Positions 11,005 through 36,720 of a DNA stretch of 62,820 nucleotides are shown here, piece by piece. The notes beneath the pieces are model-generated. The model saw only the letters and a program-made list of their open reading frames with translations, was not told where the DNA came from and made no database searches. Source of the stretch: Chloroflexota bacterium (lineage in GTDB: Bacteria > Chloroflexota > Dehalococcoidia > Lucifugimonadales > UBA826). Position numbers and translations under genes: made by a program. The stretch is from the NCBI GenBank assembly GCA_003228105.1, contig QGNN01000004.1, positions 1 to 62,820 on the forward strand. The letters are read 5' to 3'. How positions within the stretch are numbered: the stretch's first letter is position 1; each line of letters starts with the position of its first letter.

Positions 11005-12150
11005 TTAGCTAAATAACTCTCTGATTCTTTCTGCAACCAGCTCCTCTTCACCAACCTTAAGTCCAAACATGTGGATTGCTATATAGTCGTCACCTTCTCT
11101 TGCCCTAGTCCATACGGGTGGATCCCCTTTCTTTAAAGTGTCTACTATTTCCTGGAGTGTCATTCCTGCTTGTTCTTCATCTATTCTTAATTCAACACCG
11201 AAAGGCTGATGCCCAATGATGTTATTTATCATTCCAGAGGTAATGGCGGGTGTGTCTGAAAGAATATCTATGACCTTCTGACTTCTGGTTTCAATCTCTA
11301 TGAGCCTTTCTTCATGATTTATTGTCATCCAGTTTCTTACCGCAGCAACAACACCCACCATTTCTTGTCTATCTACCTTATGGGGCCTGCCTATCCCTCT
11401 TACACGGCGCCCTTCATATCCCACAAATGATTGTTTAGAGATTTTGCGAATCATATCTTCCGTACCTAGAGCTAGGCCGGTGGATTGTGAAGCGCCCATA
11501 TATTTAGCGGCTATACATTGAAAATCTGCACCCATTTTAACGTATTTGCCAAATAAGTCTAAAGGATATATTTGACCAGCTGCATCAACTAAAACAGGGA
11601 GTTTATTTTGGTGAGCTATTCGTATAGTTTCCTCAAGTGTCAACGCATTTGGGTCATGCTCTTGCTCCACCATATAAAAGTGTACGGCCGCTGTATTTTC
11701 GTTTATAGCCTTTTCCAAATCTTGAGAGGTAGTGCCGTCGTCCGAACCAAATTCCACTAATTTTGCGCCAGAAGCTTCCAAACATCTGTCATACCAATAT
11801 CGCTGTCTTTTTTGGATAAGAATCTGGTTTTTCATTCCGGTGGTATCCGGCAATTGTTCTATTAATTCGTCATTATCGCCAGCCATGACTGCAGCAGCAG
11901 CTAAAGTCAAAGCTGAACCCGCACCTGAGGTTATGTAAGCAGCTGGAATACCTATCATTTCTGCTACCGCCGATCCTGCTTTTTCTTCCAATTCCATTAA
12001 CGGAATATAAGAGTCTCCAGCTAGAGCCATTGCTTCCCTAACTTCAGGAATCGGTGTTGATCCACCCAGCATTGTCACACTACCAATCGCATTTATAATT
12101 GGAGTCGCACCGAGTTCTTTATATATGTCCCCTAAATTTCCTGATGTCAT
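11005..12150 (-). CDS. SelA-like PLP-dependent enzyme (D-glucosaminate-6-phosphate ammonia-lyase / aminotransferase-fold)
   Basis: A 381-residue fold-type I PLP enzyme resembling the SelA/DgaE group. Family features are the N-terminal PIINAIGSVTMLGGS, the glycine/serine-rich SGAGSAL cofactor loop, VDAAGQIYPL containing the PLP-contacting Asp, the probable Schiff-base lysine in AAKYMGAS, and the late GRPHKVDRQEMVGVV characteristic of SelA-like lyases rather than true selenocysteine synthase. No selenocysteine genes are seen nearby, so selenium chemistry is unlikely. The ATG at 12150 has GGAGGT five bases upstream and is preferred over the track's 12165. Likely substrates are amino sugar acids or other amino acids; ammonia-lyase or racemase activity is inferred only from family. 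Confidence 0.85.
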   Translation of the reverse strand: MTSGNLGDIYKELGATPIINAIGSVTMLGGSTPIPEVREAMALAGDSYIPLMELEEKAGSAVAEMIGIPAAYITSGAGSALTLAAAAVMAGDNDELIEQLPDTTGMKNQILIQKRQRYWYDRCLEASGAKLVEFGSDDGTTSQDLEKAINENTAAVHFYMVEQEHDPNALTLEETIRIAHQNKLPVLVDAAGQIYPLDLFGKYVKMGADFQCIAAKYMGASQSTGLALGTEDMIRKISKQSFVGYEGRRVRGIGRPHKVDRQEMVGVVAAVRNWMTINHEERLIEIETRSQKVIDILSDTPAITSGMINNIIGHQPFGVELRIDEEQAGMTLQEIVDTLKKGDPPVWTRAREGDDYIAIHMFGLKVGEEELVAERIRELFS

Positions 12151-12221: not shown

Positions 12222-13022
12222 CTAAAAAATTGAAATTCCTAATAGATAGCCGGCACCATAGGTGAAGGTGGCGGCTAATGTGCCCGCCAAAAGCATCCTG
12301 GTTGCACCAAGGAGTATGTTTTTACCACTCGCTACTGAAACAATTCCTCCGACAATGAATAAGGCCGATGAGCTAAATATCGCACTAAGGACAATAGATA
12401 TGTTACCTGAAGAAAAAAGAATTGGGATTATCGGTATCAACGCACCTAGTGCGAAAGCTAACAAACTACTAATTGCAGCTAACCATGGAGACCCTAAGTC
12501 CTGCGGGTTGAGCCCCAATTCCTCTCTAGCCATCGTGTTTAATTCACGGTTTGGATCAGCCATCAGTGCAGACGCTATTACTTTTGCTTGGCTTTCCTCC
12601 ATGCCTTTTGCTCTGTATATCAGTACTAATTCTTCCTCTTCCCCCTTAGGCCACTCTTCCAATTCTGCCCGTTCAATATTTATTTGATGTTCGTATATGT
12701 CTTTCTGCGACCGAACAGAAATATATTCTCCAGTAGCCATTGATAAGCTACCAGCAATGAGGGCCGCTACACCTGCTAAAATAATAAAATCAGCATTTTC
12801 CGATGCTGTTGTCCCACCTGCCACACCCATCATCAAGCAAAAATTAGACACTAACCCATCGTTTATGCCTAAAATAGCCGCTCTTATACCGCCACTGTTC
12901 CCATGAGTGTGCCATATTTCCTGGATTTTTTGGTTGTCAGGGTTTCCCATTGCCATTTTTGACAGTATTCGGGCATGGTCTTTCTCTTCTTCTATAAGTT
13001 CTTGACCTTCGACTTCGTGCAC
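12222..13022 (-). CDS. VIT1/CCC1-family membrane protein, C-terminal part of a ferritin-like/VIT fusion
   Basis: This 266-codon frame encodes the last part of a ferritin-like four-helix domain (IEEEKDHARIL with the ExxH iron ligands) followed by a VIT1/CCC1 transporter domain with the signature GIRAAILGINDGLVSN and about five membrane segments. Such Er-V/VIT proteins move or store iron or manganese at the membrane. The apparent start is a GTG with no real ribosome-binding site, and it is the codon immediately after the amber stop of the upstream frame, in the same frame. The ferritin domain is therefore split, and the natural product is probably one protein covering 12222-13343. Either this is a nonsense mutation or sequence error, or the amber codon is read through. 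Confidence 0.85.
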   Translation of the reverse strand: MHEVEGQELIEEEKDHARILSKMAMGNPDNQKIQEIWHTHGNSGGIRAAILGINDGLVSNFCLMMGVAGGTTASENADFIILAGVAALIAGSLSMATGEYISVRSQKDIYEHQINIERAELEEWPKGEEEELVLIYRAKGMEESQAKVIASALMADPNRELNTMAREELGLNPQDLGSPWLAAISSLLAFALGALIPIIPILFSSGNISIVLSAIFSSSALFIVGGIVSVASGKNILLGATRMLLAGTLAATFTYGAGYLLGISIF

Positions 13023-13025
13023 CTA
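13023..13025 (-). other. In-frame amber codon inside a ferritin-like/VIT gene
   Basis: TAG on the minus strand separates EIEA from VHEVEGQ in one continuous frame, in the third helix of the ferritin-like domain. A tyrosine codon (TAC/TAT) is a single change away and would suit this helix. See findings. Confidence 0.8.
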
Positions 13026-13343
13026 TGCTTCGATCTCTTTGGATTCAATCCTTGCCAGCCAGGGTAATATTTTTTGTGGCCCGAATAAATAGCAAACCAT
13101 TCGTATATAGATAAGTTTTGGAGTGTAGGTATGAAGAGTCACATCACCAATGGGATTACCTAGTTTTTCTGACCAATGCCGAGCATGTTTTACTTCAGAC
13201 TGAGAAAGTTGTTCAAAAATCTCAGATTTCTCAGGATCGACTTCAAATTGAGCAAGCATTTTATACATTGATGCAGCCTCAATTTCTGACCGCAAATACC
13301 CCTTGTAACGATTAGCATTGGATTTGGAAAGGACGGTGGACAT
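13023..13343 (-). CDS. Ferritin-like (rubrerythrin/Er-V) domain, N-terminal part of a ferritin-like/VIT fusion
   Basis: A 106-codon frame holding the first half of a rubrerythrin-like ferritin domain: helix 1 with LRSEIEAASMYKML (Glu ligand), helix 2 with LSQSEVKHARHWSEKLG (ExxH ligands), then helix 3 which is cut at EIEA by TAG. The missing helix 4 and its ligands (EEEKDHARIL) are encoded straight after the TAG in the same frame, so the piece alone could not form a complete di-iron site. It starts four bases after the endonuclease IV stop codon and is probably in an operon with it. The likely intact product is a membrane ferritin of the MbfA type. Confidence 0.8.
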   Translation of the reverse strand: MSTVLSKSNANRYKGYLRSEIEAASMYKMLAQFEVDPEKSEIFEQLSQSEVKHARHWSEKLGNPIGDVTLHTYTPKLIYIRMVCYLFGPQKILPWLARIESKEIEA

Positions 13344-13347
13344 TCCG

Positions 13348-14199
13348 TTATTTTTTTAGTACTTTGTTTCTTATTGATTTCAACCGATTAATATTCTCTT
13401 CATCAGGCCCATCCCCATCGAATCCTGGAACTTCCAGGAAAAATGGGACCTGAGAAAATGCCGGGTTTCCGAGTATGACTTCGAAGCCTTCTTCACCAAT
13501 GTAACCTTCGCCAATATTTTCATGTCTATCTACTCCAGACCCGAATTCTACTTTGGCGTCGTTAGCGTGCACAGCTACCAGTCGCTCCAACCCGATTTTA
13601 GAGTCAAATTCCTCCATAATCGAATTGATAGTGTCATCAGAGGCTATGTTATAGCCTGCTGCATAGCAGTGTTCCGTGTCTAAGCATACTTTAAGATTAG
13701 GATGATTCACTGCTTTTATGATGGTGCCAATTTCCTCAAAAGAGGAGCCAATATGAGATCCCATACCTGCGCTATTTTCTATGCATAACCATGTGTCACT
13801 TGGAGACTTTTCTAGAACCTCAACAAGGCATTTCACGGCTTGATCTAGTATTGTGTTGAAACCTTTTCCCTTATGGCTTCCTCCGTGAAATATAACTCCT
13901 TCTGCACCAATTTTCCCGGCAGTAATCATGTTATTTGTCAGGGATTCGATTGATTTTCCGAGTTGATTTTCATCTCCTCCTATATTTACCAAATAACTAC
14001 CATGTATATAGCATGGTCCTATGCCAGTTTCCGCACCTTTTTTCTTAAAAAGAGCAATTTCCTCTTCCTTAGGAAAATTGAATTTCCAGGCCCTAGGAGA
14101 TGATGCAAATATTTGTATAGCTTCTGCGCCGATTGCTTGAGCCCTATCTATGGATTTACTGAGTCCACCCGAGGTGGATACATGCGCACCTAATTTCAT
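13348..14199 (-). CDS. nfo: Endonuclease IV (AP endonuclease)
   Basis: Zinc-dependent AP endonuclease of the TIM-barrel Nfo family, 283 residues, which cuts DNA 5' to abasic sites in base excision repair. The N-terminus GAHVSTSGGLSKSIDRA and QIFASSPRAWK are typical; metal-binding segments include VIFHGGSHKG, CIENSAGMG (Glu), VCLDTEHCYAAGY (Asp/His), VHANDAK (His/Asp) and RHENIGEGYIG (His), with a final Glu in FFLEVPG. All expected ligands are present. It lies directly upstream of the amber-split ferritin/VIT gene with a four-base gap, which could tie repair of oxidative lesions to iron handling. Confidence 0.96.
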   Translation of the reverse strand: MKLGAHVSTSGGLSKSIDRAQAIGAEAIQIFASSPRAWKFNFPKEEEIALFKKKGAETGIGPCYIHGSYLVNIGGDENQLGKSIESLTNNMITAGKIGAEGVIFHGGSHKGKGFNTILDQAVKCLVEVLEKSPSDTWLCIENSAGMGSHIGSSFEEIGTIIKAVNHPNLKVCLDTEHCYAAGYNIASDDTINSIMEEFDSKIGLERLVAVHANDAKVEFGSGVDRHENIGEGYIGEEGFEVILGNPAFSQVPFFLEVPGFDGDGPDEENINRLKSIRNKVLKK

Positions 14200-35618: not shown

Positions 35619-36720
35619 ATGCAAGAATTGAAAACCGCTTTATTCGATCTGAGAGAAAAGGTTTCTGACCTACTGGTGCGTCTTTGACCTTCCTTCAAAG
35701 GAACGAAAAATAAAAGAATTGGAAGAAGAATCGATAGTTCCAAATTTTTGGGAAGATTCTACTAATGCCCAATCCAAAATGAAAACCTTGGCAACATTAA
35801 ATAATCAGGTTGCTGTGTGGAAAGGGATTCAAAAACAGATAGTGACGAATCTGGAATTGCTGGAACTGGCAAATTTAGAGAACGATTCAAGCTTTTTGGA
35901 TGAGATTCGCCTGGAAACCGGTCAAATAGAAAAAAACGTCGAAGAGGAAGAATTTACACTTACCCTCTCAGGTGAACACGATCAACGCGATGCCATATTA
36001 GCCTTGCATGCGGGGGCAGGAGGTGTTGATTCTCAAGATTGGGCTTCTATGCTAACCCGTATGTATACCAGATGGTGCGATCGGAAAGGGTTTGGTTGTG
36101 AAATTTTAGATGTTTCTCACGGAGAAGAATCTGGTATAAAAAGTGTGGTGGTACAAATAACTGGCGACTATGCATATGGTCATCTCAAAGCGGAAAAAGG
36201 AGTTCATAGACTCGTTCGGATTTCCCCATTTGATAGCGACCATGCTAGGCATACTTCATTCGTTCTCGCTGAAGTTATCCCAAAAATGGATGAAAGCGCA
36301 GGCGTCGAAATTAATACAGATGATTTGAGGGTGGATGTATTTAGAGCTGGAGGCCATGGTGGACAAAATGTTCAGAAAAACTCAACAGCTATACGAATAA
36401 CTCATGACCCCACCGGGATAGTTGTAACATGTCAAAATGAAAGATCCCAACACCAAAACAGAGAAATAGCTATGGGAATATTAGCTTCTCGCTTGGCAGA
36501 GCTAGAAAGAAAGAGAAAAGATAAAGAAATATCGGATTTGAAAGGGGATCATGTTTCTGCCGAGTGGGGTAACCAAATTCGTAGTTATGTATTGCATCCT
36601 TATCAGATGGTTAAGGATCACCGAACCAATGTGGAGACTTCTGCCACAGATGAAGTTTTAGACGGCAATTTGGACGTTTTCATAAAAGCTTATTTAGCCT
36701 TTCAAATGGGTTCTGACTAA
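35619..36720 (+). CDS. prfB: Peptide chain release factor 2 with programmed +1 frameshift
   Basis: RF2, 366 residues after frameshifting, releases peptides at UGA and UAA. The ORF track starts at 35719 only because the first 22 codons (from ATG 35619, with GGAGAGG upstream) lie in another frame and end at CTT TGA C. A +1 shift at that site reads on as L-D-L-P-S-K-E, giving the normal RF2 N-terminus. The codon-recognition tripeptide SPF is in RISPFDSDHARH and the catalytic GGQ in AGGHGGQNVQK. The frameshift is autoregulatory: low RF2 lets the ribosome pause at UGA and slip. The gene precedes an ABC transporter locus. Confidence 0.96.
35682..35688 (+). promoter_or_regulatory. RF2 programmed +1 frameshift site
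   Basis: CTTTGAC: Leu codon, in-frame UGA, then C, the same slippery heptamer used in most bacterial prfB genes. A short SD-like GGTG three bases before it is weaker than the E. coli AGGGGG spacer. Confidence 0.92.

Follow-up and report, generated by a model that had tools for sequence, protein, structure and literature searches.

A single in-frame TAG in an MbfA-like ferritin–VIT1 fusion gene of a Chloroflexota bacterium, probably a recent nonsense mutation

Introduction

What is to be made of a gene whose reading frame is open from end to end except for one amber codon in its interior? The question is raised by a stretch of 62,820 nucleotides from a Chloroflexota genome (the whole stretch is called the window here), in which the frame of an MbfA-like fusion protein is cut by a single TAG. 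Judging by its relatives, the host is presumably an uncultured marine bacterium of the SAR202-like Chloroflexota. An earlier note, made from the letters alone, had left three explanations in competition, namely a recent nonsense mutation, an assembly error, and programmed amber readthrough that gives a soluble half-ferritin and a fused membrane form.

Organisation of the interrupted gene

Translation of the 374-codon minus-strand frame yields exactly one internal stop, the TAG at codon 107; the terminal stop is also a TAG (Table 1). Codon 108 is a GTG that follows the internal stop directly, and the same frame continues into the segment EEEKDHARIL and a complete VIT1 domain (profile PF01988, E 1.3e-66), as the earlier note had described for a VIT1/CCC1 transporter. 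Unless the TAG is disregarded, the two parts do not make a single polypeptide. The N-terminal 106 residues match the Rubrerythrin profile PF02915 weakly, with 21.0 bits at a cut-off of 22.8. In the orthologues the ferritin-like part and the VIT1 domain are uninterrupted, and the endonuclease, MbfA-like and PLP enzyme genes are neighbours in the congener G007 as well. Since this congener has the same gene order with an uninterrupted orthologue (92% identity, residues 3-372), the domain order is, on sequence comparison, not a chance juxtaposition. Automatic annotation would report two genes where relatives have one, and beyond annotation the matter is of little importance.

Table 1. Features of the MbfA-like locus, in positions of the window.
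Feature	Position	Strand	Basis
MbfA-like gene, ferritin-like/rubrerythrin and VIT1 fusion with one TAG	12222..13343	-	translation; uninterrupted orthologues of 92/90/72/71% identity
Premature TAG, codon 107; TAC in G007 and G002, TAT in G001 and G004	13023..13025	-	codon comparison, alignment
N-terminal fragment of 106 codons with long helices one to three and E20, E50, H53 and E100; without E120/H123	13026..13343	-	translation, domains, alignment, structure model
C-terminal part, open for 266 codons from GTG, with the fourth long helix and complete VIT1	12222..13022	-	translation, domain match
Upstream gene of the AP endonuclease 2 family (Nfo-like), intact; its stop lies 4 bases ahead of the MbfA-like ATG	13348..14199	-	frame, domain match, congener comparison
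Downstream gene, intact and conserved as a neighbour: SelA/aminotransferase-V-like PLP enzyme	11005..12150	-	domain match, congener comparison

A model of the intact orthologue, which has a mean pLDDT of 70.7 (low-to-moderate confidence) and was used for helix boundaries only, predicts four long helices before the membrane part, at residues 7-33, 37-60, 93-108 and 111-132. It places codon 107 at the C-terminal end of the third helix, with the fourth helix and its residues E120 and H123 cut off. The ligands were assigned from the conserved E/ExxH/E/ExxH sequence pattern, which reads E20, E50xxH53, E100 and E120xxH123 in the window frame and varies little or not at all in seven relatives. The TAG thus falls between the first four ligands and the last two, and because E120 and H123 come after the stop, the 106-residue product cannot, on this assignment, form a di-iron site. 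The earlier note had located the stop within helix 3 and had denied a di-iron centre to either half; for the N-terminal fragment the second point holds, and the position is more precisely the end of that helix.

Codon 107 in related genomes

The genus was sampled with eight genomes, the window's own included. Uninterrupted full-length orthologues are present in four congeners (G007, 92% protein identity; G002, 90%; G001, 72%; G004, 71%), with TAC at codon 107 in the two nearest and TAT in the other two. Tyr107 is invariant in the alignment of seven full-length relatives, and among 80 more distant loci (the best 80 in GTDB r220) 69 also have tyrosine here. No relative shares the TAG, and among 131 matches in 130 genomes, found by a class-wide search, the window's copy alone has an internal stop. 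These comparisons bear out the earlier suggestion that tyrosine was the ancestral residue. A scan of the GTDB r220 collection returned no congeneric record, hence no second genome of the species, and its best match reached 54%.

The remaining congeners contain altered or partial copies, or none that we found. G006 has a gene fragment at a contig end and in G005 no copy was found, both assemblies being incomplete. In G003 (locus L019, contig C32, 1-1116) the gene has its own one-base frameshift near codon 79 and a conserved VIT domain, and the fourth-helix ligand segment is changed from EEEKDHAR to KEDGNYAR; the contig is 3,984 bases long and ends in the gene, and the frameshift may be an assembly error. 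As this lesion is independent and the helix-D ligands are changed as well, the genus may be able to tolerate losing the ferritin-like domain. Other genera of this family (G008, G009, G010 and G012) encode VIT-only proteins, with 239-252 codons.

Two observations on the relatives are added here. Among the 80 best fused ferritin–VIT proteins, 42 have lost the di-iron ligands, with A50/Q53 and usually K100 at these positions, and keep Tyr107; many are from Betaproteobacteria, and loci L083, L087, L090 and L093-L097 are among them. From their sequences, they form a large subgroup with an apparently inactive ferroxidase domain, and since the tyrosine is kept where the ligands are lost, Tyr107 looks structural. 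Furthermore, G014 has two nearly identical gene copies on different contigs (L009, L016), and there are ambiguity codes in several draft relatives (L066/L067, noted alongside G014); both are signs of mixed strains in those assemblies.

Age of the stop codon

The frame around the TAG still has the substitution pattern of a selected gene. Pairwise Ka/Ks between the window and G007 is 0.20 in the ferritin part (residues 1-147) and 0.10 in the VIT part, and the intact pair G007-G002 gives 0.12 and 0.14, respectively. Lineage-specific synonymous/nonsynonymous codon changes amount to 30/16 in the window, 14/7 in G007 and 30/10 in G002, with no clear excess in any of them. The MbfA-like frame contains no other stops or frameshifts, and its Ka/Ks is similar to that of the intact congeners. 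When 58 genes over 62.8 kb were compared with G007, the MbfA-like gene alone had a stop or lost coverage and the other 57 were intact. A long-standing pseudogene was rejected, given neither an excess of amino-acid changes nor extra lesions, and so was a generally poor assembly, given 57 of 58 compared genes intact.

Because further decay is absent, Ka/Ks is 0.1-0.2 on both sides of the TAG and the other 57 genes are intact, the stop should be either very recent, possibly still segregating, or a one-base error; the lack of additional decay would be expected only of a very young allele or of an error, and it lends inactivation no support. The relatives have a sense codon where the window alone has a stop, as a young allele would predict. 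An assembly or consensus error, by which the cell has a Tyr codon and an intact gene, would likewise account for a single substitution without further decay at a position where all intact close relatives have tyrosine, and the genome is a draft of 52 contigs and 88.7% completeness. The assembly is, however, clean here, with no stop or frameshift in the 57 other genes over the 62.8 kb and no ambiguous base in the window, and we give the error an appreciable but clearly minor chance.

Decoding of the TAG

A single in-frame stop followed by an intact frame is also what programmed amber readthrough, with a soluble half and a fused form as its products, would leave. Yet the stop is found in no relative, folding of the 100 bases from the stop is no stronger than that of shuffled sequences (z = 0.17), and the context after it, UAG GUG CAC GAA, contains no CARYYA motif; Rfam and tRNA scans of the window found nothing. 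The soluble product would moreover be a half-domain without the fourth-helix ligands. The genome encodes release factor 1 (prfA, 488 bits), and the best match to the PylS profile (TIGR02367) in all eight genus genomes has 24.7 bits at a cut-off of 178, so that only weak matches exist. None of the 36 tRNA genes found in the 88.7%-complete assembly has a CUA anticodon. On its own this absence is weak evidence, because tRNA-Tyr (GUA) and tRNA-Trp (CCA) are likewise not among the 36. Suppression by a dedicated tRNA or by pyrrolysine was rejected, as neither a tRNA nor PylS was found. Reassignment of TAG was rejected as well: 18 other window genes stop at TAG exactly where their G007 orthologues end, and release factor 1 is present. 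A conserved context after the TAG and a CUA suppressor tRNA, both of which the earlier note had proposed as checks, were thus looked for and not found. With a stop that is not conserved and no recoding context, we rejected programmed readthrough as extremely improbable.

The window probably does contain a genuine recoding site, unlike the MbfA-like TAG. The prfB gene for release factor 2 (35619-36720, plus strand) has the classical layout of a programmed +1 frameshift, with an ATG at 35619, 21 codons, CTT TGA C at about 35682-35688 and then the main frame.

Possible re-initiation at the adjacent GTG

A further proposal is compatible with a nonsense mutation and concerns its consequence: the stop may split the gene, with the VIT transporter arising through termination-reinitiation at the GTG that adjoins the TAG, as a first step from a fused MbfA to a VIT-only protein. 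The VIT-only proteins of the same family and the broken ferritin-like domain beside a well-conserved VIT domain in G003 are consistent with it. No ribosome-binding site precedes the GTG, which the earlier note had correctly pointed out and from which it had judged useful re-initiation unlikely. That inference is weak, because no canonical (Shine-Dalgarno) site precedes the ATG of the gene itself either; close behind the stop of the endonuclease gene (Table 1), this ATG is probably translationally coupled to that gene. Against the proposal, the GTG is older than the stop and common to G007, and the window lineage has changes at otherwise conserved VIT positions (E233K, E234G), although not clearly more than other lineages. 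Altogether we consider re-initiation doubtful. A broader version, in which broken ferritin-like domains are reducing the fused iron exporters of the genus to VIT-only proteins, the VIT part being rescued at the adjacent GTG and the window showing a snapshot of gene fission, seems to us improbable and speculative.

Discussion

Of the genomes searched, this one alone has the stop. Since every intact close relative has tyrosine at this position, the stop marks, as far as sequences can tell, an ordinary broken allele, or else a sequence error in one base, and not a programmed device. Of the three explanations in the earlier note, the first fits best, with the stop present here only and tyrosine in the relatives; the error is the minor option and readthrough has fallen away. 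We therefore favour a nonsense mutation at Tyr107 (TAC to TAG) of an MbfA-type iron-exporter gene, recent and perhaps only segregating, with a probability of roughly 0.72.

With such a mutation, translation would end after codon 106 and the chain would be released, presumably by release factor 1. The likely product would be a dead three-helix fragment of 106 residues without a complete di-iron site, and the fused iron exporter would be lost as a consequence; at most a VIT-only protein might arise from the GTG. If the mutation is real, it suggests that this population can do without the fused exporter and that what the genus can lose is the ferritin-like half. No PF00210 ferritin was found in the assembled genome (88.7% complete), so that a real loss of the exporter would leave no recognised ferritin of this family in the assembled part. 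The 'iron-storage loss' that had been linked to the mutation is not accurate, because MbfA-type proteins export iron, carry a ferroxidase domain and form no ferritin cages (PMC7762939). Their iron export requires the cytoplasmic ferritin-like domain for transport (review PMC7762939; also PMC4902296). By analogy with this literature, iron export and ferroxidase activity of the window's gene product are putative.

Three known systems can be compared. VIT1 (PDB 6iu3) matches residues 152-364 of the G007 orthologue in sequence (E 5e-25), a match that covers the VIT part only and leaves the ferritin-like domain unmatched. The VIT-only CCC1/VIT1 transporters of the same family resemble the 266-codon C-terminal frame in the window; they are free-standing genes, whereas the VIT half in the window shares its frame with the broken ferritin-like half that precedes it. 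MbfA (membrane-bound ferritin) of Bradyrhizobium japonicum and Agrobacterium tumefaciens has the same architecture, with an N-terminal ferritin-like E/ExxH/E/ExxH domain and a C-terminal VIT1/CCC1 membrane domain. In contrast to MbfA, the gene described here comes from a SAR202-like member of the Chloroflexota, is known from its sequence, and is cut by a stop before the fourth helix.
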